From Tetrahymena thermophila SB210 (taxonomy: Eukaryota > Ciliophora > Oligohymenophorea > Hymenostomatida > Tetrahymenidae), in assembly GCF_000189635.1 (NCBI RefSeq), contig NW_002476327.1:100164-164163 (forward strand): a stretch of DNA of 64,000 nucleotides. The letters run 5' to 3'. A program made the translations under genes and the position numbers. Of the stretch, positions 45,125 through 64,000 are shown one piece after another. The notes under the pieces were generated by a model. That model saw nothing but the letters and a program-made list of their open reading frames with translations, did no database searches and was not told the origin of the DNA. How positions within the stretch are numbered: the first letter of the stretch is position 1; every line of letters begins with the position of its first letter.

Positions 45125-48100
45125 ATGAAATAATAGAAAAATTATTTTAAAAGTCTAAAAGATGTAAATATTTATTTTTTTAAAGAAGTTATTTGAATTT
45201 ATTTTATTAATAAAAAAAGTTTTTAAACTCTGATCTTTAATCTAATTCAGTTATAGAAATTGATCTCTAGTATATTTAATTTATTAATATTAATTATTAC
45301 AAATACTTTTTTATTTAATTTTCAAGTTTATTAATTATAATATAATATTATTTTCTAATAGACAATCTCATCTATATTAGCTCATTATCAATTAAAAATT
45401 TTTTTTTAAAATTATTTTAATTTACTTTTAATTTTTAATTATGAATTTATTTCTTTTTATATCATATATTTTCTTCCTTTTTCCTTTTAAATAAATAAAA
45501 AATTAATTAATTATAATAATTTTCTTCAATATTTAAAAAGATAAAATTTACTTGCTGATGAAGACATATCAGGCTTAGGTTCTGCTTTAGCATAATGCAA
45601 TAATCTCTCAAATTTGATACTATATCTATAGTAAGAATAGTTTGTTTGTTTTGGATTTTGATATTTTTTAATATAAAAATTAATTTAAAACAGTTTATTT
45701 TTTATTAACTTTTTATTTGATTTATTTTTTTTTACTTTTTAAATTTAACTCATCCGTTTTTTCATTTTAAACTTTTGCTTTGATTTTAAATAAATTAATT
45801 TATTATTATCTCATATTTTTCTTCATTTTTCCTTATAAATTACTAATAAATAAATACATTTTCTTCAATATAAAAAAGCAACAATTAAATTAGTGTTGAA
45901 AGTATATCAGACTTAGGTTCTGCATTAGTAAAGTGCACTAATCTCTCAAATTTAACAATATATCTTTAGTAAAAACAGTTTATTTGTTTTGGTTAATATA
46001 TTTTTTAATTTAATTGTTTATTAGCTTTTTATTTTGATTTACATTTTTTTTTATTTTGCTAACCTGTTTTTTTCTTTATTATTTCAACTCATTCATTTTT
46101 TATTTATTTTAAACTTTTTATTTGATTATTAATTATTATCTAATACTTCTTCATTATTTTCCTTTAAATAATTAACTATTTAAAAAAATTTTTCAATCTT
46201 TAAAAAGTGGAAATTAATTTGGTGATAAAGTTGCAACAGTCTTAGTTTCTGCTTTAGCAAAGTGCATTAATCTCTCCAATTTGACACTTAGTCTTGAGTA
46301 AAAACAGTTTATTTTTTTTGGATTTTGATATTTTTTAACTTAAAAATGAATTCAAAATAATAAAACTTGATTTATCTTTCTTTTTTAAATTTGTTCGTGA
46401 GATTTTTTTATATTTCTAATTCATTTTTTTAATTTATTTTTTGATTTGATTATTAATTAACTCGTTTCTGATTATTTCAAATTGTTTATTTATTTATTTT
46501 TCCTTTCTAAATAACTAATTATTATTATAAATTTTCTTCAATTTTTAAAAAGTTGCAATTAAATTGGAGATGAAGGTTCATCAATCATAGGTTCTGGTTT
46601 AGGTTAGTGCACTAATCTCTCATATTTGGTACTTTATCTTAAGTAAAAACAGTTTATTCCTATAAATTTTGATATTTTTTAGTTTTATAAAGAATTTAAA
46701 AACAATAAAACAGTTTTAATTAAATTATATAATAGTTTTTTATTTGATTTATTTAACTTTTTATTCTTCTCTTATTATCTCATATTATTTGTTTATTTTA
46801 TTCAAACTAAATTTTAAATTTTTATATTTTTTCAATATTTAAAAAGTGAAAATTAAATTGGTGATGAAGGTATATCAGGCTTAGGTTCTGGTTTAGCAAA
46901 ATGCACTTATTTATCAAATTTATCTCTCTATTTTTGGTATAATTTTTTTGTTTAGGATTTTGATATTTTTAATATAAAAATGATTATTTAAATAAATAAA
47001 TAATTATTAATTTTTTATTTGACTTACTTTTCTTTTTTATTTTGTTTGTTTTACATTTATTATTAATTAATTAATTCATTTCTTATTATTTTTTTTTATT
47101 TCTTCATTTTTTCCTTCTTATTAATTTTTTTTCTTCTATATTTAAAAAGTGGAAATTAAATTTGTGATAAAGGTTTATAAGGTTTATGTTCTGCTTTAGA
47201 AAAGTGCTCTAATCTCTCAAATTTGACACTTGATCTTGAGTAAAAAAAGTTTATTTTATTATTTTTTTTGATATTTTTTAATTCAAAATTAAATAAATTT
47301 TATTTATTATTATATATATATGTATGTATATCTTGGTTTACATTTCTTTTTTTTTCCTGCAGAGCTTTTCTTTTTCTTAATTTATCACATTTATTATTTT
47401 TATTATAATTTTTAGATTTGATTATTAATTAATTAATTCATTTCTTACAACCTCATTATTTATCTTCATTTATTCCTTCCAAATAATTATTAAATTAATT
47501 ATATATTTTTTAATCAATATTAAGTGAAAATCAAATTAGTGGTGAAGGTGCATCATTCTTAAGTTCTGCTTTATCAAAGTGTACTAATCTCTAAAATTTG
47601 ACACTTGATTTTGGGTAAAAACAGTTTATTTGTTTTGGATTTGATATTTGCAATTTATTTTATTTTATTTGATTTACTTTTCTTTTTTATTCTTTTTCTA
47701 TTTATATCTTAATTTTACTTATTTTTTTAAATATCATATGCTTTATTGATTAATTAATTTATTTATTTATTAATTATTTCATATATTTTTTTCATTTTTT
47801 TTCTTTTAACTAATTCGCTAAATATTTTTTCTTCAATATTTATAAAGTGGAGATTAAATTGGTATTTAAGGTTTATCATACTTAGGTTCTGCTTTAGCAT
47901 AGTGCACTAATCTATCAAATTTGAAATTTTATCTTCAGTAAAAACAAACAGTTTATTTGTTTTGGATTTTTATTAATTATATATTTTTTCTTCTATATTG
48001 AAAAAGCGACAATTAAATTTGTGAAGACGGTCTATCAAGTTTATATTTTGCTTTAGAAAAGTGCACTAAACTCTCATATTTAGTACTTGATTTTAGGTAA

Positions 48101-49462
48101 AAGCAGTTTATTTGCTTTGGGTTTTGATATTTTATAATATTAATTTAAAATTTTTTATTGATTTAATTATTAGCTTTTTATTTTATTTATTTTTCATTTT
48201 TTATTCTCTTTGTATTTTTATTTTCTTTATTAGAAAAACTAACTAACTAACACATTTATTTTATAGTTTTAAACTTTTGCTTTGATTAATATTTAATTAA
48301 TTCATATTTTATAATCTGATATTTTTCCTACTAAATAATTAGCTAATTAATTATATTTTATATTTTATTTAACTTTTAAAAAGTTTCAATGATATTGATG
48401 ATAAATGCGCATCAGAGTTAGGATCTGCTTTAGCAAAATGCACTAATCTTTCAAATTTGATACTTATGCTTAAGTAAAAACAATATAATTAACTCTTTTA
48501 ATTAATTTATTTATCTATTAATTAGCTTTATATTTTTCTTTTATACTCTGCTTGTTTGTTTTTTTTTCCTTTCTTAATTTAAATGATTCCATTTTTCATT
48601 TCAAATTTAGATTTAATTATTAATTAACTTATTTCTTATAATATCATACTATTTCTTGATTTTTCCTTCAAACAAACAAATTAATTAACTTTATATTCTT
48701 GCTTCAATATTTAAAAAGTGAAAATTAAATTGGCGATGATGGTGCATAAAGTTTAAGTTCTGAATTATCGAAGTGCACTAATATCTTAAATTTGACACTT
48801 TATCTTAGGTAAAAACAGTTTAATTGTTTTAGATTTGATAATTTTTAATATAAAAATAAAACTCTTTTAATTTATTTTTTCATTTGTTTTTATTTGATTT
48901 ACTTTTCATTTTTTTAATCTTGTTTTTTTTTTCTTTCTCAATTTAAATAATTTCATTTTCAACTTTACTTTGATTGTTAGTTAGTTAATTCATTTATTTC
49001 TTATTATCTAAGTTTTTTTTTCATTTTTTTCTTTTAATTAACTAATTAATTATTTATATTTTCATCAACATTTAAAAAGTCAAAATTAAATTACAGATGG
49101 TGGTGTATCAGTCTTAGGTTCTGCTTTAGCAAAGTGCAATAATCTCTTAAATTTGACAATTCAACTTGAGTAAAAACAGTTTATTAGTTTTTGACTTTGA
49201 TTTTTTAAAATTAAAATGTATTTAAAACAATAAAAGTTTTTAATTCATTTATTTATTATCTTTTTATTTTAATTATTTATTTATTGTTAAATATAAAATT
49301 TTATTCTATTAACTTTGATTAGTAATTTACAATAATTATATTTAAAGGTAAAATTATATCAGTGAATCAGTAGAATAGAAAATAAAGAACAAGTGCCTAA
49401 AATCAAAAAGATTAGTTCTTTTTAAAAATTAATCCTTACTAAATATTTTGAATTAATAATGA
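45125..49462 (+). CDS. LRR protein with 12 single-repeat exons (LRR gene 4)
   Basis: Spliced gene, predicted 427 residues. Exon 1 is 45125-45163 (MKQQKNYFKSLKD). Exon 2 is 45220-45269. LRR exons: 45541-45630, 45879-45968, 46208-46297, 46553-46642, 46847-46936, 47150-47239, 47525-47614, 47848-47937, 48007-48096, 48384-48473, 48719-48808 and 49080-49169, all exactly 90 nt. The last exon is 49348-49462 (NKCLKSKRLVLF ... NILNQQ, TGA). The intron between the eighth and ninth LRR exons is only 69 nt while others are 190-330 nt, suggesting a fusion or deletion between two units. The most regular of the four LRR genes; all introns after exon 2 are phase 2. Cytosolic binding protein inferred, no enzyme domain seen. 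Confidence 0.87.
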
Positions 49463-50714: not shown

Positions 50715-53700
50715 ATGGATTTTATCAGCTAAAATCTTGTAGGATCCTAAGAAGCTAAATACAAGCTTGCTTTGCATCTTCAAAACAGGAAAAAAGTCAA
50801 AGAGATGTACAGAATGAAAGGTGTCTAAATGCTCGATAAGCCTGAGTTAGTCAGTAAAAAATATTTAAATTAATATTCATTTTTTATGAATAGATTTATA
50901 ATTATCAATATTTAACTATTAAAACTTGCATCTAGATATTATTAAAACATAAACGTTTAATCTGTAAAAATAAAACCAAACCATTCACTTAATAAATTAC
51001 CTTGTCTTAGCTCTAATCAAACTTTATTTTAATTTTAACAAAAGTTTCTGATATCTAAGAACCTAATATAAAGCCTTAATAAGCTTTAATTTATTAGACT
51101 ATGAAAAGCGAATTAATAAAAAAGGGCTACTCTGATTTTAGATTTTTAGGATAGGGAGTATAGGGACTTGTCTTGTTAGCTAAAGATTCTAAAAATAATA
51201 TTAGGTATGCTATCAAAGGTGTTTAAATTAGAGATCCTAACGGAAATCTTGACAAAGATCTTAGCGATAGAGTTAGTTAAGAAGTAGAAATACTTAAAAA
51301 ATGTAGAGAATCTCCTTACGTAGTGAGTCTTTTAGATTAATTTGAAGGATAACAATTTAGTTACTTAGTTCTAACTGAGTGTTAAGGTACAAATCATACT
51401 AATTTATTTTTAAAATTAATAAATAAATAAAAAAATCAAACCCCTTAATTGAAAGTTTTTAATGCAAAATTAAATTCTATAAATAAAAAGGAACTCTTAC
51501 CTAAATTTTAGAAAGAAACTAAAACAAAAGACTAAATGAAATATCAGCAATAAAATATGCTAATGATATTGCTCAAGGTCTCTACTACATTCACTCTAAG
51601 AGCTGCCTTGTTAATGATCTCAAAATGGATAATATCTTAATTGACTATCATGGAAATGCAGTTGTTTGTAAATTTTTAACAAATCTAAACAAGCTTGATC
51701 GATTTGATTTTCTATAAAATATATTAATTAATTAAATAGCTGATTTTGGTTTGGCAGATAACCTAATAAATAAATCTGGTTATGCTTTCAATCAATATGT
51801 ATGCACTCATATTTTTATAATACTTAAGTGATATTAAAAAAATTAAAGATGGGAAACTTCTTGTATCAAGCACCAGAGTGTTTTGACCCATCTGATCCAT
51901 TCATAGGTAAGGTTTATCATGATGAATATTTAAAATTAGGCGTCACTGTGAGACAAGAGCCAAGCAACAGAGTAAAAATTTTATTTAAATTCTTTCTCAA
52001 TAGGATAGTTGATATTATTCTTATTTATTAATTTAAACAGAGTGAAGCATGTTCTTTAGGTATTATTATATTAAATAAAAAATATATTACTTGTTTTTAT
52101 TTAACAAAAATTACTAAAAAGGATATCTAATATATACTTTTGTCTAGGGTTTAGATTTGAAATTAGCATCAAATAAGCACAAAGAATTAAATTATGATGA
52201 TGAATTTAAAAATTTTGTTTATCACAAATAGCTTAAATATATTATAGAAGGATTAACTAATTTTGTTCCAAAGAATAGAATGCCTATTAAAGAGGCTTTA
52301 ATTATTTTAAAGGGAATTATTTCTTTTGAATTTTAGTTAGATGAAATGCTTATTGAGATGATAGATGGAAACACTCAGCAGTTCACAAGTTCGCTCAAAA
52401 ATGAAATTGAGTTTATTTAAGATTTGTCAAATAAGTTTTACCCAATCATGTATATTTTTGTATTCTAATCTACCACTTTTGTTAAACTTTTTAAAGTAAA
52501 AACGAACAGACCTTAAACTAAGAGTTAAAAGAAGACGATCAAAAAAGATAATATGTTAATTAACATATTTTGTTCAAAATATCCTCAATTTATTCAAAAT
52601 AATTTGTAAAAAAGGAGGCAAAAATAGAAGAATTATAGAAAACAAATTTCTAACTATAATAAAGAATTAATGAATAAGAATAAACAATTCAAGATTTATT
52701 CTCCAAATTAGAATAACCTTAGAATTAGATAATGAATCAACCTTAGATTATGATGATACCAGCAATGAAAATGAATGACTAGTCACATGTTATTTTTTAA
52801 GAAATAAAAAATTAGGAAAAGAAAGATGAATTACCAAAAGAAAAAATCTAACTGTAAATTAATTTAATAGAAATTAATAAAAATATTATGAAAAAAAATT
52901 TAGCACACAAAAAAGGATGTAATTTTATTCACTCATTGAACATATTCAAAATTTGTTTATTTAAAAGGAAGTAAATAACTTTGAAAATCGTGATCATAAA
53001 TTAATAATCTTATTCATTTAGAGGGTTATATTTTTATCTATAACTATTACTTAATTAATATATTTTTCTAATATAGATTGTAATCACTAGTCCTTTCCAT
53101 AAAAAATACTAAATTTACTTATATATTCAAATAGCATGTAAAGTTTTTATCACAAAATGCTCAAATTAACTTTCATATACAAAATAGCATGTAATTAATA
53201 TTTTAGAATGATTTTATATGAGAAAATAAATGCTGAATTAACTTTCATATTTAAATTAGATAGTAATTAATTTTTAGAATGATTTTGATGAGAAAATAAA
53301 TGCTGAATTAACTAACTTTCATATTCAAAATAGCCAGTGATTAATATTTTAGAATGATTTTTGATGAGAAAATAAATGCTGAATTAACTTTTATATTCAA
53401 AATAGTGGGTAATTAATATTTTAGAATTATTTTTGATAAGAAAACAAATGCTGAATTAACTAACTTTCATCATCAAAATAGCTAGTAATTAATTAATATT
53501 TTAAAATAATTTTTTTAATTATATACAAGATATCTGCATAATTTTAAGATATTTTATATTGAGCCATTGTTGTATCTAATATTCTAGAATATTCTTTATT
53601 GGAAATTTTTATATTTTAAATATTCTCGATTAAAAAATTAAAAAATATTGTAAATATTGTAATAAAATAGATATTTTAAAATTAAAATAAAAATTCTAAG

Positions 53701-56700
53701 ATTTTAGTTAGATTCATTCTGATAAAAAATATAGAAAAAAGAATCTAGGATAATATAATATTTTTAAATTCTCAATAAATAAATTTTAATAAATTAATAA
53801 TTATTTTGAAGTCATATTTAATCTACTTATGATTTTATTAACTTCTAATTTAAGGAATAATATTTAAAGATAAAATAGCTATCACAACCAACAAAATATT
53901 TAAAAAATAAAAGTAATTTCAATTAAATATTAAGATTTCTTAGTAATATTTACTCTAATTAATCATATTTTAATATTGTGCCTATTTCTTGTATATAATA
54001 TTATCTTTAACCATAAAATAAATGCCAAATTTAACTTTCATTTACAAAATAGCTAGTAATTAATATTTTAGAATGATTTTTGATGAGAAAATAAATGCTG
54101 AATTAACTTCCATATTCAAAATAGGATGTAATTAATATTTTACAAAGATTTTTGATAAGAAAATAAATGCTGAATTAACTAACTTTCATATTCAAAATAG
54201 AGAGTAATTAATATTTTAAAATTTTGAATGAGAAAAAAATAAATGCAAAATTAACTTTAATATTTAAAATAGCGTGTAAAATATACATATATTTAAAAGA
54301 GGTGAATAAGTTATATTATTGAAAAATAGACAGTAATAAATATATTAAAGAATAATTTATAAATAATTAATTAATTATCTAAATAACCAATTAGGAAGTA
54401 ATGTTATTTGATTTATTTTTTTTAGAAAATGCTGATTTAAATTACTTAGTATTAACAAGAGGAGGTAATAATTTTAGTTAAATAGATAATAGTTAATAAG
54501 TTATATAAAATTTTGAAAAGGATGTAATATAATATTTGTGATTTAGAAGTATCAGATATTGAAAATGAGTTTATTGTATGAATAGTGGGTATGAATTTAT
54601 TTATAATATTTTTAAATTTTAAATATTGTATCATTAATATTTAAAAATAGATAGTAATCTTTTGATATTAAAACATCTAATTAATATATCAATAATGGTT
54701 TTAAATAGAATGTAAATAGTGTCTATGATTAAAAATAATCAAAAAAAATTAAAATTAAAAAAAGCAAGTAAAATTTAGACATTAATTAAAATAAATATGA
54801 TGAATTGTATTAAATAATTAAAACAGATGGTATATTTTGAATAATTTCATTGAAAGAAGCAAAATAAATTATTTTTAAAAAGCGAAGATTGGTAAATAAT
54901 TTTAAATAAATTTTTGAGAAATAAAAAATAATTTGAACATTATAATTATAAATAGGGAGTATTGAAATTGAAGATTTATTCAGAAATTTAAAAATTAAAT
55001 TTGATAATTAAAATAGCATGTAATATTTTAAAGTGCATTTAAAAATTATTCAAACATAAATTAAAATTATAATATAAATAGAAAAAATGGGTAAAATATT
55101 AAGATAAAGAAACGTATAGCTATAAAAAATTGAATAAAACATTAATTAGGTAAATAATTAATTAATTTAATTATATTAGAAAAGACAAACTCATATTAAA
55201 TAAACTGTTAATTAATAGGATGATGTATTACTTTCAGATTTATTTTATCAAATAATAAATAGTTAATTAATTTTACTTTTGAAACAGATTGTAATATTTA
55301 TATTACTTTCTTATTGACATATATTCATTCATTAATTACTTCAACCAAATAGCTAGTAAATCTTTTATTATTTTCTATTAATATTTATCTATTTATTTAT
55401 TTTTTAATAGTGAGTAAAATTTTTGAATGACTTTAAATAAGAAGAAAACGAAAAATTATAAATAGGGAGTAAAGCTTTTATGTTAAATGCCACTCTAAAA
55501 TAAATACAAAATTATTTTTTTTTTTCTATTATAGAGAGTATAATCTTTGAATAATATTTTATCAGAATATTTTAAAATATCTTCAAATTTAAATAAGGGA
55601 TTCGTAATTTTTAATTTTAGTATTTTGAAATATTCAAATAAAATGACTTAAATAGGAAGAAGTAAAGATCAATCTAGTTAAAATCTTGGCTTGATATTAT
55701 ATTTGCTTTTATTAAAATAAATAATAGACTGTAATTTTTTAATAACATTTCATAATCTTAGCTAGATCGATGAAATAATAAATTAAAATTAATAAAATAG
55801 AATGTAATAATTTAATTCAATTCTAATTCAAAAATACAAATTAAAACTTAAAATAGTGGGTAATTTTTTTACTAGATATTATCAAGAGATATTTATTTTT
55901 TTATTTTCCTTTTTTATTTAAAAAAGCAAGTAAAAAACAAGCAAACAATCATTTGTTGTTCTAAATTTAGAAACTACAAATTAACTTTTAAATATAAACA
56001 GAGCGTAACTTTCTTTATAAAATTTATTCTAACTATCTCAATATTTTTATTATACAAAACAGCTAGTAATATTTCTTACTTTATTTATTAGAATATTAAA
56101 TATATTTCATATTTCTAATAGCCTGTAAACTTTTATATTTGTTTCTTAAAAGATTAAACATATTTTACTTTATTATATCAATAAGCGGGTAATTTTATCA
56201 TCTTATACTAGGTCTTCTTCGAATTTTTTACATCTTTAATAGCAAGTAATTTTTTAAAATTTTTATAATAATTAGATTTTCAATTAATTTTTAAATTGAA
56301 AATAGGGAGTAATTAATAGTTTAGAATGATTTTTGATGAGAAAATGAATACTAAAATTAATTTTCATATTCAAAATAGGATGTAATTAATATTTTAGAAC
56401 GATTTTTGATGAGAAAATAATGTTGAATTAACTTTCATTATAAAAATAGCAAGTAATTTATATTTTAGAATGATTTTTGATGAGAAAATAAATACTGAAT
56501 TAACTAACTTTCTTATTCAAAATAGCAAGTAATTAATATTTTAGAATAATTTTTGATGAGAAAATAATGCTGATTTAACTTTCAAATTCAAAATAGTCTG
56601 TAATTAATATTTTAAAATGATTTTTGATGAGAAATAAATGCTGAATTAACTAACTTTCATATTCAAAATAGGGAGTAATTAATATTTTAGAAGGATATTT

Positions 56701-57816
56701 GATGAGAAAATAAATGTGTTGAATTAACTTCCATTTTCAAAATAGGATGTAATTACTATTTTTGAATTATTTTTAATTAGAAAATAAATGCTGAATTAAC
56801 TAACTTTCATATTATAATTAGGCTGTAATTCATATTTTAGAAAAATTTTTGATAAGAAAATAAATGCTGAATTAACTTACATTTTCAAAATAGCTAGTAA
56901 TTAATTAATATTTTAGAATGATTTTTGATGAGAAAATAAATGCTGAATTAACTTTCATTAACAAAATAGGCTGTAATTAATATTTTAGAATGATTTTTGA
57001 TGAGAAAATAAATGCTGAATTAACTAACTTTCCTATTCAAAATAGCTCGTAATTAATATTTTAGAATGATTTTTGATGAGAAAATAAATGCTGAATTAAC
57101 TTTCATAATCAAAATAGCTTGTAATTGATATTTTAGAATGTCTTTTGATATGAAAACAAAATCTAAATATAAAATAGCGAGTAAAATTAAATAAGAGTTA
57201 ATAATAAGAAATTAGAAAATTAAATGAACTTTTGAAAAAAGATGGTAATTATTAGTAGATGAAAAATTAGACAGAAGGAAAATAAGTTTAATTTTGAATA
57301 TACAGCGAGTAATATTTTAGAAGAATAATTTTTATATAAATATCTAATTTAATTTATGAAATAGATAGTAATATTTTTGAAAGGTACTATATAATGTAGA
57401 TTAAGTAAGTGTTAATTTTAAAATAAAAACAGTGAGTAAGAGTTATGAAAGTAATTGAAAAAATGTAACTAACTAACTATTTTAATTCTAAACTAGATTG
57501 TAAAATATTTGAGTGATTTAAAAATAATATATAAAAATTAAAAAAAAATAGGTTGTAATATTTTAAATAATTTTGGATGAAATGAAATCAAGAAGTGTTT
57601 TAATTAAAACAGCTGGTAATAATTAATTAATCCTATTAAGAAACCAAAATATGAAAATCTATCTACTACTTATTTATTATAAAGAAATGAAAATTATTTA
57701 TAAGAAAATTAAGTTTTCAACTAAACCTTTGAATAAAATAAATAGGGTATATATAACATATATAAAGTTTTAATAACAAAAAAGCAAGATTTAATAAACA
57801 TTTATAAAAATATTAG
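50715..57816 (+). CDS. Protein kinase with coiled coil and micro-exon-encoded C-terminus (kinase gene 1)
   Basis: Ordinary exons: 50715-50853, 51045-51386, 51512-51667, 51740-51798, 51849-51971, 52041-52059, 52122-52449 and 52497-52853 (507 complete codons). The kinase domain has a glycine loop GQGVQG (82-87), AIK lysine 104, helix-C Glu near 126, catalytic loop VNDLKMDN (194-201, so HRD is VND, a non-RD form with the catalytic Asp present), DFG 214-216, and YQAPE, then SEACSLG for the usual D-W-S-L-G. Lys and Asn in the loop fit Ser/Thr specificity. After residue 389 a coiled coil follows (KIEELQKTN, then QQRINEQEQTIQ). Intron 52450-52496 sets this frame; reading through it would stop at TGA 52725. 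A 15-nt exon (52904-52918, TQKR) and 64 micro-exons then give 70 more residues to a TGA split between 57614-57615 and 57816, about 582 in all. The kinase part is firm; the micro-exon tail is inferred. Confidence 0.75.
53191..53480 (+). repeat. Homogenised intron units, first block
   Basis: Four successive units of about 70-76 bp share the body GTAATTAATATTTTAGAATG, then TTTTTGATGAGAAAATAAAT, GCTGAATTAACTTTCATATT and CAAAATAG. The 3-nt insert differs at each unit end (ATA, CCA, TGG, CTA). The same intron unit recurs at 54056-54200 and in the two blocks below. Confidence 0.85.
56309..57180 (+). repeat. Homogenised intron units, second block
   Basis: Twelve consecutive introns of about 57-76 nt are near copies of one sequence (bodies as in the first block; some carry an extra TAAC duplication, AACTAACTTTC). 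The triplets at their ends vary: GAT, CAA, CAA, TCT, GGA, GAT, GCT, CTA, GCT, CTC, CTT, CGA. By contrast introns from about 54280 to 56240 share no sequence beyond splice signals yet keep the 3-nt spacing. Confidence 0.85.
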
Positions 57817-57818
57817 AA

Positions 57819-60470
57819 GGTAATTAATTTTTTTACAAATAAATTTATAATTTTCATTTAATTGAAAAACTTAATTTCAAAAAATAATAAAATATAAATC
57901 GTTTTTGTGATTTTAAAAAGTGACGAGCCACCAAATTATTGTTAGATTCAGGTAACACAGTTTACGAAATCAGAAATGCGCTTTTTGTTTGTTAGTTTGC
58001 TTGCTTGCTTGTTTATTATAAATAAAATAATAATTTAAATTATTGTTAACAAATATTAAAAATAATATGAATTTGTATAATATATTTTTATGTTTTCTAT
58101 ATTATTTGTAGCTTCAACTTTTAATTTCTTTTTTTTTAAAAAACATGAAAAAAAAAATAATTAGAGCGAAATGCCTATTTAATTTACAAAAGGCGAAATG
58201 TAATTTATCTTATAAAATAATAAATAAAGCTAAATAAGCTTAAAACAGCTTTATTTATTTTTGAGTTTTTAGAAACCTTTAAATTAGCAAAATGTTAAAT
58301 TTGAAATAATAGACACCATATATTCTTATAACATGTCATTTTTTTTGAAAAATATAAATTTTGAAAAATTTTTTGTTACCATTTTCAAAAAAGACATTAA
58401 CTTGTGGGTTATTATTAATATGAGTTTTTTGGATAACTCAGTAAAAGATACAGCTTATTTATAGTGAGCTTCTAACTTTAGAGTAGGTTTAAGGTACAAA
58501 AAATTTTTATTTTTTAACTTTTATTGTATATTTTTAAAGTTATTGGTTATTCATATCAAAAAATAATTTTGTTATCCACTAATCTTTTATTCAAAAATAA
58601 ATACATTTTTTAATGAAACTTCAAAGAATATGAAAAGTATTTGGCTTTTCCCACTATTTATTATTTACCTACTTATTTATGGTTGTTTTAGTAAAAAAAC
58701 AGTGAGGTATTTTATCTAATATACATTACTTGTTGTATCTATTTTAGCAATTGCATATGTGCTTTGTTAATTGGCTCTCAATATTTGAAGGTAAGATAAT
58801 GCTTGAACATTTTTAAATTTTATTTTTTAAAGAAAAAGGTCTTTTAATAAGCTCTGGTTTAGAAAGTTGGTGTGAAAATGTTAATATCTGTTTATAATCT
58901 TACAATTTATTGTTTTTTACAGCAAAATTTGCAAAAAGTTTTACATCTAAGCTTCATTTATTTAGTTATCTATGTTTCAAATTATATGTTAGATTTACTT
59001 CTTTAAAATTATAGTACCATTTATTTATACATATATTTACAATTATGAAGACATTCATAAATTTTAAAGGTTAATAGAACCCAGTTTATATAGAAAACTG
59101 ATTTATGGTCAATTAATTCAATGATGACATACAATTTAAATTCTAAGATTCTTTACTTCTATGTATTACTAAAGCTATGAATTTTTATATTGTTTTCTTT
59201 CTTCCTTTATTTTACGCGCATTACTCATCAAATTTGATTCATTATGTCATTTTGCATATTTTCGTGATTAAGATGATGGCAAGTTGGAATATTTAAATCT
59301 TATTTATAAAATGATCTAATATTTAATGCGTATTATTTATTACAATATGTATCAAAGAAAATTGTGATTTGTCAAATATTCTTTTTACAGATCATTTAAT
59401 TAATATACATCAGATTTTAACAAAAATAAACATTTAAAATATTAACGAATTTAGTTTATAGCGATCTTCTAACTTTAGAGTAGGTTTAAGGTTGAAAAAA
59501 ATTTACTTTTTTAAACTATTGTTGCATATTTTTCAAGTTATAAGTTATTCATATTAAAAAATAATTTTTTTATCCACTAATCTTTTATCAAAAATAAATA
59601 TTTTAATGAAACATCAAAGAATATGAAAAGTATTTTGCTTTTCGTGCTATTTATTATTTACCTGCTTTTGGTTGTTTTTGTAAAAATACAGTGAGGTATT
59701 TTATCTAATTATTACTTATTGTATCTATTTAAGCAATTACATATTTTCTTTGTTGATTGGCTCTTAATATTTGAAAATAAGATCTGGCTCGAACATTTTT
59801 CAATTTTATTTATAAAAGAAAAGGGTCTTTTCATAAGTTCTAATTTAGAAAGTTGGCGTGAATAATATTTGTTTATAGTCTTACAATTTATTGTTTTTTA
59901 CAGCAAAATTTGCAAAAAGTTTTATATCTAAGCTTCATTTATTTAGTTATGTATATTTAAATATTCCAACTTGCCATCATTTTAATCACGAAAATATGCA
60001 AAATGACATAATGAATAAAATTAGATGACTAAATCGCGTAAAATAAAGGAAGAAAGAAAGAAAACAAATAACAATTCATAGCTTTAGTAATACATAGAAG
60101 TATAGAAGCTTAGAGCTTAAATTGTTAGCCATCATTGAAGTAATTGACCATAAAATCAGTTTTCTATTTTAAACTGGATGGTACTAACCTTTAAAATTTA
60201 TTAATATCTTCATAATAGTAAAAATATCAATAAATAAATGGCACAATAAAACTAACATATAATTTAAAACATAGATGATCTCATATTTAATGCGTATTAT
60301 TTATTACAATATTTATCAAAGAAAATTTTGATTTTTCAAACATCCTTTAATTAATTTACATCAGATATTAACAAAAAATAAACATTTAAAAACTTAACGA
60401 ATTTTGTTTATATAATTAATTAATTAATTCAACATAATTTGTTAGAAAAAAAAATATTGAGATATAAAAA
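57819..60470. other. Region between kinase genes 1 and 2: duplicated upstream blocks
   Basis: 57921-57951 is exon-like: it follows TTTTAAAAAG, begins TGACGAGCCACC and ends before GTAACACAGTTTA, matching the borders of the 90-nt LRR exons but only 31 nt long. 58465-58600 and 59462-59600 are direct repeats (TTTAGAGTAGGTTTAAGGT). 58600-59460 and 59590-60470 are two copies of the kinase upstream block seen at 49856-50690; the second contains an inverted segment. No gene seen. Confidence 0.5.
59955..60280 (-). repeat. Inverted segment of the kinase upstream block
   Basis: This part reads as the reverse complement of about 50190-50480 (for example CATAGCTTTAGTAATACATA against TATGTATTACTAAAGCTATG near 50355). 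Sequence on both sides is in direct orientation and collinear with the other copies, so a local inversion, or an inverted duplication plus loss, occurred after the block was copied. Confidence 0.8.
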
Positions 60471-63400
60471 ATGGATATAATCAGCTAAAATCTTCTAGGA
60501 ACCTAAGAAGCTAAATATAAGCTTGCTTTGCATCTTCAAAATAGGAAAAAAGTCAAAGAGATGTACAGAATGAAAGGTGTATAAATGCTCGATAAGCCTG
60601 AGTTAGTCAGTAAAAAATATTTAAATTAATATTAATTTTTTATGAATAAATTGATAATTATAAATATTTAAATATTAAAACTTGCATCCAGAAATTATTA
60701 AAGTTTAAACGTTTAATCTGTAAAAATAAAACCAAACCATCCATTTAATAAATTACCCTGTCTTTGTCTTGGTTCTAATCAAATTTTATCTTAATTTTAA
60801 CAAAAGTTTCTGATATCTAAGAACCTAATATAAAGCCTTAATAAGCTTTAATTTATTAGACTATGAAAAGCGAATTAACTAAAAAAGGCTACTCCGATTT
60901 TAGATTTTTAGGACAGGGAGTATAGGGATTAGTTTTATTAGCAAAAGATTCCAAAACTAAAATGAGGTATGCCATCAAAGGTGTTTAAGTTAGAGATCCT
61001 CAAGGAAAACTTGACGAAGATCTTAACAATCAAGTGAAGCAAGAAGTAGAAATACTCAAAAAATGTAGAGACTCTCCTTATGTAGTCAGTCTTATAGATT
61101 AATTTGAAGGATAACAATTTAGTTACTTAGTTCTAACTGAGTGTTAAGGTACAATTAAAACTAATTTATTTTAAAAATTTATAAATAAATAATAAAACCC
61201 CTTAATTTAAAGTTTTTAATTCAAAATAAAATTCTGTAAATAAAAAGGAACTCTCAACTAAATTTTAGAAAGGAACTAAAACAAAAGACTGAATGAAATA
61301 TCAGCAATCAAGTATGCTAATGACATTGCTCAAGGTCTCTACTACATTCACTCGAAGAACTGCCTTGTTAATGATCTGAAAATGGATAATATCTTAATTG
61401 ACTATCATGGAAATGCTGTTGTTTGTAAATTTTTAACAAATCTACACAGCTTGATCGATTTGATTTTCCATAAAATATATTAATTAAATAGCTGATTTTG
61501 GTTTGGCAGATAACATAATAAATAAATCTGGCTATACTAACAACCAATATGTATACTCTGATATTTTTATCATATTAAAGAGATATTCAAATAATTCAAT
61601 TCAAAAAAATAAAGATGGGAAACTTGTTATATCAAGCACCAGAGTGTTGTGACCCATCTGATCCATACATAGGTAAGGTTTATCATGATGAATATTTAAA
61701 ATTAGGCATCACTGTGAGACAAGAGCCAAGCAACAGAGTAAATATTTTATTTAAATTCTTTCTCTCAAGGCTAATTAATATTATTTTTATTTATTCATTA
61801 ATTTAAATAGAGTGAAGCATGTTCTTTAGGTATGTATTATAAATAAAAAAGCTATTATTTATTTTTATTTAACAAAAATTATGAAAAAGGATATCTAATA
61901 TATACATTTGTCTAGGGAATAAATTTCAATTTAGCATCAAATAAGCACAAACAATTAAATTTTAATGATGAATTTAAAAATTTTGTTTATCACAAATAGC
62001 TTAAATATATTATTGAAGGATTAACTAATTTTGTTCCAAGGAATAGAATGCCTATTAAGGAGGCTTTAATTATTTTAAAGGGAATTATTTCTTTTGAATT
62101 TTAGTTAGATGACATGCTTATTGAAATGATAGATGGAAACACTCAGCAATTCACAAGTTCACTCAAAAATGAAATTGAGTTTGTTAGAGATTTGTCAAAT
62201 AAGTTTTACCCAATTATGTATATTTGTGTATTCTAATCTACCTCTTTTGTTAAATTTTTTAAAGTAAAAATGAACAGACCTTAAACTTAGAGTTAATAGA
62301 AGATCATCAAAAAAGACAATATGTTAATTAACATATTTTATTCAAAATATCCTCAATTTATTCAAAATAATTTGTTAAAAAGGAGGCAAAAATAGAAGAA
62401 TTATAGAAAACAAATCTCTAACTATAAAAAAGAATTAATGAATAAGAATAAAAAATTAAAGATTTACTCACAAAATTAGAATAATCTTAGAATTAGTTAA
62501 TGAATCAACCTTAAATTATGATGATGCCAACTATGAAAATGAAGGAATAGTAACATGTTATTTTTTAAGAAATTAAAAAATAGGAAAAGAAAGATGAATT
62601 GCCAAAAGAAAAAAACTTACTGTAAATTCAATAAATAAGTTTTTAATAGAGATTAATAAAAATATTATGAAAAAGAAAGTATACACTTTTCATCAGTTTA
62701 CTTCAAAAATATTATTTAATTAATTTTAATATTATAAAAAATAGCATGTAATTAATTCCTTTTGAAAATTATTTATTAACTAAAGAATTATCATTCACTT
62801 CAAAAAATTGAATGGCTAATAATTTGTTTAAATTTATAAAACCTTAATAATCAATCTTCCATTTAAAAACTTCTTAGAAAGTAAATTCTTTCAATTATAA
62901 TTATTAATTTAATCTCATATTTCAATAGCAAGTATATTTATTACTCTTTAATTACTCTTCTCCTTTTTTAAATTATCTTAACCTATTTTAGCACACAAAA
63001 AAGGATGTAATTTTATTCACTCAATTTCAACATATCCAAAATTTTTTATTTAAAAGGAAGTAAATAACTTTGAAAATCATGATCATAAATTCATAATCAT
63101 ATTCTTTTAGAGGGTTACATTTTTATCTATAGTTATTACTTAATTCATCTATTTCTCTAATATAGATTGTAATCAATCGTCCTTTCCTAAAAAAATACTA
63201 AATTTACTTATATGATAAAAATAGCATGTAAAGTTTTTATCACAAAATGCTCAAGTGAACTTTCATATTCAAAATAGCATGTATTAAATATTTAAGAATG
63301 ATTTTTGATAAGAAAATAAATGCTGAATTAACTTTCATATTCAAAATAGGAAGTAATTAATATTTTAGAATGATTTTTGATGAGAAAATAAATGCTGAAT

Positions 63401-63996
63401 TAACTTTCTTTTTCAAAATAGGGAGTAATTAATATTTTAGAATGATTTTTGATGAGAAAATAAATGCTGAATTAACTTTCATATTCAAAATAGATAGTAA
63501 TTAATATTTTAGAATGATTTTTGATGAGAAAATAAATGCTGAATTAACTTTCATTTTCAAAATAGCTTGTAATTAATATTTTAGAATGATTTTTGATGAG
63601 AAAATACATACTGAATTAACTTTTATATTGAAAATAGCTTGTAATTAATATTTTAGAATGATTTTTGATGAGAAAATAAATGCTGAATTAACTAACTTTC
63701 ATATTCAAAATAGCAGGTAATTCATATTTTAGAATAAAAATAAATACTGAATTAACTTTCATATTCAAAATAGCACGTAATTAATATTTTAGAATGATTT
63801 TTGATGAGAAAATAAATGCTGAATTAACTTTCATATTCAAAATAGGGAGTAATTAATATTTTAGAATGATTTTTGATGAGAAAATAAATGCTGAATTAAC
63901 TTTTATATTCAAAATAGCTTGTAATTAATATTTTAGAATGATTTTTGATGAGAAAATAAATGCTGAATTAACTAACTTTCATATTCAAAATAGCAA
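60471..63996 (+). CDS. Kinase gene 2, paralogue of kinase gene 1, cut by the window end
   Basis: Exons: 60471-60609, 60807-61148, 61269-61424, 61492-61550, 61615-61737, 61811-61829, 61890-62217 and 62265-62621, each exactly the same length as its counterpart in kinase gene 1. The kinase signatures are kept: GQGVQG, AIK, LVNDLKMDN (non-RD), DFG, YQAPE and SEACSLG. The coiled coil is conserved (KIEELQKTN, QKRINEQEQKIKDLL). After 62621 (phase 2) an intron of 123 nt leads to micro-exons 62745, 62878 and 62929 (3 nt each), a 15-nt exon 62992-63006 identical to the one in gene 1, then 15 more 3-nt exons up to the window end. The reading INNTQKRMKGFIMKEYFF has no stop. The gene continues beyond 64000. 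High identity to gene 1, introns included, marks a recent tandem duplication with a repeat distance of 9756 bp. Confidence 0.75.
62745..63996 (+). other. Micro-exon array of kinase gene 2 (partial)
   Basis: 3-nt units and starts: CAT 62745, AAA 62878, CAA 62929; 15-nt exon 62992-63006; then GAA 63057, AGG 63111, ATT 63166, CAT 63225, CAT 63278, GAA 63350, GGA 63422, ATA 63494, CTT 63566, CTT 63638, CAG 63714, CAC 63774, GGA 63846, CTT 63918 and CAA 63994. The first five after the 15-nt exon equal those of gene 1; the rest differ. From 63281 on, the introns are near-identical units of about 57-75 nt of the same sequence as the homogenised blocks in gene 1. All AG/GT borders are canonical. Confidence 0.72.
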
Positions 63997-64000
63997 GTAA
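63281..64000 (+). repeat. Homogenised intron units, kinase gene 2
   Basis: Ten successive units share the body described for 53191-53480 with few changes and continue past the window end. Copies inside this array are closer to one another than their enclosed triplets are, which points to recent unit-by-unit amplification or gene conversion of the intron sequence. Confidence 0.85.

Follow-up and report, generated by a model that had tools for sequence, protein, structure and literature searches.

A protein kinase gene family of Tetrahymena thermophila with a tail predicted to be encoded by consecutive 3-nt exons

Two tandem protein kinase genes and their triplet arrays

The stretch of DNA analysed here (the window, 64,000 nucleotides (nt) in length) covers positions 100164-164163 of contig C205 of Tetrahymena thermophila, and its plus-strand end is the end of the contig. 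The genes of the window translate when TAA and TAG are both read as glutamine, giving open reading frames (ORFs) in the ciliate code. This code (code 6), the base composition and the LRR-like repeats (leucine-rich repeats) of the window suggest Tetrahymena or a close relative. Two tandem paralogues, gene 1 at ca. 50.8-57.8 kb and gene 2 at ca. 60.8-64.0 kb, encode a kinase domain and then a coiled-coil-like exon, after which TAG-NNN-GTAA recurs at regular spacing in both of them. Judged from the sequence, these arrays very probably represent spliced and translated exons of single-codon length, all in phase 2, which form the tail of a protein kinase.

The upstream part of gene 1, with its kinase-domain exons and introns, occupies 50846..52496 of the plus strand within approximate limits and was assigned from ciliate-code ORFs and from the paralogous copy at 60.8-62.3 kb, which matches Pkinase. 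The last large exon (52497..52853, plus strand) is rich in lysine, glutamate and glutamine (K/E/Q-rich), is coiled-coil-like by eye and terminates AACT|GTAAATT, leaving two codon bases and thus an intron in phase 2. On the same strand, array 1 opens with a conserved block (52904..53137) composed of a 15-nt exon (CACACAAAAAAGGAT) and GAA AGG ATT CAT, which gives the peptide TQKRMKGF. The first variable block (53188..54397) reads CAT ATA CCA TGG CTA CTA GAT AGA CGT ACA GAA. It is followed by a middle conserved block (54450..56245) with mutually unlike introns, in which a 15-nt exon (TATTAACAAGAGGAG) precedes 3-, 6- and 9-nt exons up to CGG CAA and the encoded peptide is NINKRRIGQIKCEDWDIKNGMIFYEEEDSKKLIGKAYLGK. 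The second variable block (56306..57180) holds 13 single-codon exons, from GGA to CGA, with mostly consensus-type introns of ca. 70 nt. The last conserved block (57242..57615), ATG CGA ATA TGA ATT GTT CTG, ends the peptide with ...ECEYELF, and its final CTG together with a next exon starting with A would form a split stop codon, TG|A.

The plus-strand region after the last codon exons (57616..57990) is probably 3' untranslated, as suggested by the alignment of nine array ends. TAG|AAG|GTAATT at 57816-57818 lies within this region; an earlier reading of the window without database searches (the sequence-only reading) had extended the tail to 57818, and while the array itself stands, this last triplet falls beyond the probable split stop. 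A stretch at ca. 57920-57980 (TGATGAGCCAC...GATTCAGG.AACACAGTTTACGAAATCAG) is well kept in most of the nine aligned ends.

The kinase-domain exons and introns of gene 2 occupy 60863..62264 of the plus strand. Its protein, joined by hand from the exons, matches the PF00069 (Pkinase) profile at residues 10-187 with an E value of 3.8e-37, and it is through this match that the family is assigned to Pkinase. The last large exon (62265..62621, plus strand), which follows the kinase domain and is likewise K/E/Q-rich and coiled-coil-like, ends CTTACT|GTAAATTC in phase 2. If this donor is unused, the frame runs into TGA at 62668-62670 (within 49 nt), so that retention of the first intron would yield a short-tailed kinase. 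Array 2 (62745..64000, plus strand) comprises CAT AAA CAA, a 15-nt exon at 62992-63006, GAA AGG ATT CAT and then CAT GAA GGA ATA CTT CTT CAG CAC GGA CTT CAA, where the contig end truncates it.

Exon length, reading frame and family members

Within the window's two array stretches, TAG and GTA are separated by 3 nt 59 times and by each other gap of 0-12 nt only 0-2 times. The final model of gene 1 contains 64 exons at 52904-57615, 57 of them 3 nt and seven 6, 9 or 15 nt long, and the introns measure 49-73 nt (median, 62 nt) except for one of 128 and one of 568 nt. The run of AG-3 nt-GT over ca. 4.9 kb described in the sequence-only reading was thus recovered, and most of its exon list was retained; two of its triplets, with ends at 52918 and 54464, fit better as the last bases of 15-nt exons. 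Of the 11 copies aligned, 10 have the first of these exons (52904-52918) at 15 nt by our own reading and C195 has it at 14 nt, and the second (54450-54464) has 15-nt counterparts in several copies.

A splice-site model that scores the intron ends alone, with exon length free between 1 and 40 nt and no length term, was applied to 23 sources. Its intron-end weights were trained on the flanks of 3-nt units, which anchors the model on those units. This model returned 1174 exons, of which 930 were 3 nt, 31 were 6 nt, 14 were 9 nt and 14 were 15 nt long; 135 were not multiples of 3. In a stricter earlier version, 3-nt exons numbered 692 and 6-nt exons 13. Patterns and proteins were also searched across the genome (101 Mb, 445 contigs). 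Three successive 3-nt units matched 358 times (106 + 252) and the reversed pattern never, while two successive 6-nt units, a control with two units instead of three, matched 7 times versus 12 times when reversed. The repeat-type unit alone, with up to 3 mismatches, gave 452 matches and no match in the reversed control. Among the matches listed (100 of 452 and 100 of 358), most lay on contigs carrying the kinase family. A TTAG-type array pattern showed no excess (3 versus 2). Chance or a pure repeat artefact is ruled out by the length controls, namely the gap census, the reversed pattern and the 6-nt control.

The kinase-side protein of gene 2 (188 amino acids) retrieved 39 stretches on 24 contigs at E <= 1e-5. 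We examined 26 gene copies in the window and at other loci, with C262 and C13 left out, and at least five 3-nt units in a chain follow 23 of them; the copies without an array are C319, where the contig stops ca. 90 nt past the match, C9:697220 and C42:2382. Further arrays, read partly or not at all, were located on C4, C42:20152-21678, C182 and C262, the last having a distant kinase relative upstream. On C4 (456634-457269; L059:335-970), 12 candidate 3-nt units were seen in the 1 kb that was read; this contig has no kinase match among the 39 stretches, and the units possibly belong to a second gene type with such exons. The end of contig C205 falls within an array, those of C7 and C88 come ca. 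350 nt or less after one and that of C319 just past the kinase part, and C9 and C26 start inside arrays. Since contigs break in or near the arrays, the assembly probably fails there, so that the true arrays may be longer and the lengths given here are lower bounds.

Six copies could be matched at the coil-exon donor GTAAATT, and in each of them the open frame ends with two bases over (phase 2); in C195 a second frame is also open at the coil exon. Stop codons were counted in the joined exons of 36 chains, using chain models in which exon lengths were forced to multiples of 3 and frame information was unused. In phase 2, no internal TGA occurred at 993 junctions, whereas shuffling the exon order within chains (2000 shuffles) gave a mean of 17.7 (standard deviation (sd), 3.3), with none of the shuffles at zero. 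Six TGA are present in phase 2; each is CTG|A or TTG|A and falls among the final four exons of its chain. In phase 1 there were 49 TGA (48.8 when shuffled) and in phase 0 there were 33, and both phases, including the reading of each triplet as a codon (phase 0), are ruled out by these stop codons. The unconstrained model gave nine phase-2 TGA, five at an array end and four via one skipped conserved exon. Because the tail is open in phase 2, the triplets are not codons and each codon spans two exons. The array was said in the sequence-only reading to follow the kinase/coil gene in the right phase, which agrees with a coil exon that leaves two bases and a tail that is open in phase 2 alone.

The amino-acid make-up of the variable blocks diverges from that of 231 normal-exon residues by 0.19 in phase 2 and by 0.60 and 0.62 in the other phases, and the overall divergence from the normal exons of the gene is 0.20 in phase 2 versus 0.35 and 0.41. 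The joined protein of gene 1 (...KKDELPKEKIQL-TQKRMKGFIIYHGYQIDVQNINKRRIGQIKCEDWDIKNGMIFYEEEDSKKLIGKAYLGKEINNLEMLQLSFECEYELF) has matching blocks in the paralogues, among which the phase-2 peptides KGF/KGY, IGYIK.EDW, FYEK.DWKK.IGK and YECEYEL recur; a distant subgroup (C7, C20 and C213) carries KGYL and IG.I blocks, in phase 2 as well. In the C-terminal block, exons differ at 55 of 354 positions and introns at 1279 of 4702 (7 chains, 21 pairs). Membrane helices encoded by the array were considered and dropped: in 15 phase-2 chains, a hydrophobic stretch exceeded the shuffled order only in C320 (p 0.007) and C29 (p 0.03), both uncorrected, and as a wrong-phase reading (L049, phase 0) also reached p 0.013, the hydropathy result is not evidence.

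The triplets also bear on splicing. Among 350 triplets in 31 variable runs, GT occurs internally 15 times versus 51.8 expected from base frequencies and a terminal AG 10 times versus 17.2, while TG, GA, CT and AC show no depletion. Such avoidance of GT would be expected if a GT within the exon acted as a rival donor. Between 54.45 and 56.24 kb, the 27 introns share a mean mutual identity of 0.549 versus 0.534 when shuffled, so the lack of likeness reported for this part in the sequence-only reading is confirmed, yet the same introns correspond one-to-one between paralogues.

These observations bear on whether the array is instead a non-coding tandem repeat past the kinase stop, an intron minisatellite in which AG-NNN-GT is a mere by-product and is never spliced at the triplets. 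Part of the array is indeed a 72-76 nt tandem repeat, and in several copies the coil frame hits TGA 8 nt before the GT if the first donor is unused. However, conserved blocks with mutually unlike introns still yield 3-nt exons in conserved order, stops are absent in a single phase, which is the one set by the coil exon, and repeats predict neither the avoidance of GT nor differing triplets between identical repeats. We therefore consider a minisatellite highly improbable. A small RNA in the repeat unit, an idea that came from TGATGA and CTGA, was not supported: an Rfam scan of the window matched no family. A several-hundred-base AT-rich sequence is present twice between the kinase genes, at ca. 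58440-58960 and 59440-59950 (by eye).

Several findings weigh against a spliced coding tail. The counts are not independent, as paralogues share a conserved order, and there is no codon-type coupling across junctions in the variable blocks. In the middle block, exons (95/565) and introns (1300/7011) differ about equally (15 pairs). AG at the triplet start is not avoided (24 versus 23.0 expected), and TAN triplets are depleted (2 versus 21.1 expected), for which splicing gives no explanation. No unsplit version of the tail turned up when one was searched for, although the empty answer of that search is uninformative. TGA is present in 20 of the 39 kinase stretches, some of these being introns or second-frame hits, which suggests that part of the family is probably decaying, and, by eye, the splice sites flanking an exon on one side or on both have been lost in some paralogues; C26, C274 and gene 2 of the window are examples of intact copies. 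In gene 1, a 568-nt gap without 3-nt exons (53485-54052) breaks the first variable block; a long intron or an insertion may account for it, so that gene 1 may be partly degenerate. The sequence-only reading is to be corrected for this gap.

The structure of the array, its phase, its conservation among paralogues and its avoidance of GT are direct observations. The central proposal of the sequence-only reading, that the gene ends in a tail of consecutive 3-nt exons, is favoured by the free-length model, the openness of phase 2, the peptides shared by paralogues and the avoidance of GT, and the array would accordingly be predicted to be spliced at the triplets. Three observations go beyond that reading: every codon is split, the arrays form a multi-locus family, and the triplets are uncoupled from the introns.

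Origin of the variable blocks

The tail alternates conserved blocks, in which introns are unlike, with variable blocks, in which the introns are nearly identical but the codons between them unrelated. Among 420 pairs of units whose flanks are identical, 26 have the triplet in common (6.2%) versus 4.1% of random pairs, and where both flanking introns are identical, the triplet is shared in 6 of 46 pairs in C287 and 0 of 15 in C440. Across 32 array stretches, mean intron divergence ranges from 1.2% to 21% while triplet divergence stays flat at 0.38-0.83 per base, mostly ca. 0.7. Since triplets are unrelated even between identical introns, introns appear to spread or homogenise independently of the codons. 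Tandem duplication of exon plus intron is rejected as the sole origin for the same reason, in line with the sequence-only reading, although local duplications exist; slow divergence after duplication does not give the uncoupled picture of triplets and introns either. Neighbouring triplets, considered with a 3-nt target-site duplication in mind, are not identical as a rule (4.5% versus 4.0% shuffled overall; 8-10% versus 4-6% around consensus introns).

A burst of intron insertion, in which copies of a master intron entered phase-2 sites of successive codons, long ago in the conserved and recently in the variable blocks, is possible but somewhat unlikely. It fits the near-uncoupling of triplet identity from the flanking introns, the failure of triplet divergence to rise with intron divergence, the 6-, 9- and 15-nt exons kept in conserved blocks, and the finding that introns next to each other resemble one another hardly more than introns paired at random (divergence 0.101 for adjacent introns, 0.106 for random ones within a source and 0.119 overall). 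However, the exact 3-nt spacing does not follow from it: of the 359 exons between consensus introns, 355 measure 3 nt and none 6 nt. Besides, units with 3, 4 or 5 rare intron variants in common share triplets in 8%, 15% and 3/14 of cases against a background of 4%, so some units must have been copied whole. Copies with near-identical-looking first blocks have unrelated variable blocks, and the search for an unsplit homologue, uninformative as it was, returned none.

The excess of shared triplets among units with common rare variants is what would be expected if recombination or conversion among the repeated introns reassorts single-codon units and selection keeps the codons diverse. Local duplications that carry triplets (GGA four times, TTG TCG TGG twice, GAC ACT GAA twice, and CAA GGG/TGA GAA duplicated in C320) also point to such codon cassettes, and the logic of uniform phase-2 exons resembles that of the 90-bp leucine-rich repeat (LRR) arrays in the text available for PMC6564038. 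In C7, C20 and C213, exons differ more than introns (25/96, 30/96 and 33/99, or 26-33%, versus 6.3-10.1%), also outside a short repeat block (exons 21-28% different; Fisher p 4e-4 to 7e-6). When these copies were compared by starting base with the repeat block included, the exon excess was 1.5-4.5 fold, but at G or C sites alone outside the repeat block it fades (p 0.46, 0.011 and 0.11). Runs of triplets shared between arrays are at the chance level (3 versus 2.4 for k=3; 0 versus 0.1 for k=4), and the association of a triplet with its flanking introns is weak, with no clear fall with distance (ratio 0.953 near and 0.980 far; null 1.00, sd 0.02-0.03). We hold cassette shuffling with selection as a tentative explanation, and it ranks about equal with intron insertion.

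Diversifying selection in the unlike-intron blocks was rejected, the base-controlled test being mixed. In phase 2, pN was 0.32-0.37 and pS 0.18-0.25, on 12-14 synonymous sites. The kinase exon of C7, C20 and C213 is 5-9% different; third positions account for most of this, and codons with a changed amino acid are about as numerous as silent ones.

Directed replacement of triplets, with exon bases rewritten or added in the germline or during nuclear development while introns stay intact, also remains, though as an unlikely origin. The low sharing between identical flanking introns (6/46 in C287 and 0/15 in C440) and the lack of a rise in triplet divergence with intron age are in its favour. Against it, a duplicated run of units in C320 with 7% intron divergence keeps most of its triplets, and an enzyme or template was neither looked for nor found.

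Whichever origin applies, the arrays may, as a tentative interpretation, serve variability at single residues: each codon would sit in its own cassette between interchangeable introns, a dedicated process would uncouple the codons, and the product could be a recognition repertoire in a unicellular organism. If so, codons could be added, lost, skipped or exchanged singly without breaking the frame. The uncoupling of codons from introns would make both intron spread and one-residue diversity directly testable.

Predicted splicing and comparison with known systems

In the proposed mechanism, the array supplies, after splicing, the 3' part of the coding sequence of a protein kinase gene in a ciliate whose TAA and TAG codons specify glutamine, and the protein would run from the coiled-coil-like exon into a tail of ca. 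79 residues encoded by 64 exons. Every intron would lie after the second base of a codon, which would be completed once two neighbouring exons join. Recognition is expected to proceed by intron definition, given that the introns are short and have strong ends (GTAA and AATAG). With only 3 nt between the splice sites on the two sides of an exon, there would hardly be room for spliceosomes on both adjoining introns, and the introns are probably removed stepwise. Because exon lengths are almost always divisible by 3 and a single phase is kept, gain, loss or skipping of units should be tolerated without a frameshift. The tail may act as a fast-changing binding or recognition region of this large kinase family.

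If transcripts confirm this structure, coding sequence is split at almost every codon for ca. 60 to nearly 100 codons running. The spliceosome would work without room for exon-bound factors, near-sequential intron removal would be forced, and the genes would offer a natural system in which to study intron definition. Software for gene prediction or RNA alignment that sets a minimum exon length can overlook tails of this kind, so that the predicted proteins stop prematurely. As described in the portion of the report available, an RNA-seq study of T. thermophila accepted a junction only with 8 bp or more on each side (PMC3274533), a rule under which such arrays would probably be missed.

The variable blocks recall known systems in part. 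Introners are near-identical introns that occur at many sites, unrelated to the flanking exon sequence, and the variable blocks have both properties. Introners can also show a target-site duplication or insert across unrelated genes, features on which the neighbouring-triplet identities given above and the matches listed bear. To our knowledge, no introners insert at every codon. The kinase arrays differ from introners in their exact 3-nt spacing and in that the matches listed lie mostly on contigs of the kinase family.

As to exon size, the available part of a report on plants describes isolated 1-nt exons in APC11 and VPS55, indicating that spliceosomes can include a single nucleotide (PMC8831610). 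The exons it covers are single and lie in ordinary genes, and neighbouring microexons occur among them as one pair (5 and 12 nt). In Schistosoma mansoni, the micro-exon genes (MEG), which encode secreted proteins, have 10-20 exons, mostly of 15 bp and ranging over 6-81 bp (3-81 bp in the abstract), and introns of 0.1-5 kb, according to the portion available (PMC10526429). They share with the kinase tails many tiny exons, mostly multiples of 3, and variable proteins. The kinase genes fall outside this definition, with ca. 60 exons that are almost all 3 nt and with short introns (median, 62 nt).

In the sections available, Xiong et al. (2019) describe Tetrahymena LRR genes with arrays of exactly 90-bp exons and phase-2 introns, explained by exon shuffling (PMC6564038). 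The window itself holds LRR-like genes at 45496-49217, in tandem units of ca. 338-361 bp, which recall these arrays. No report of arrays of 3-nt exons was found in the literature searched (open-licence papers), and the terms 3-bp, microexon, short exon and tiny are all absent from the main text of PMC6564038. Like the LRR arrays, the kinase tails have uniform tandem exons and phase-2 introns and belong to large, young, multi-copy ciliate families. In the LRR genes, the 90-bp exons form a repeated protein motif (PMC6564038), whereas the kinase-tail exons are 3 nt long, vary in sequence and hold no complete codon.

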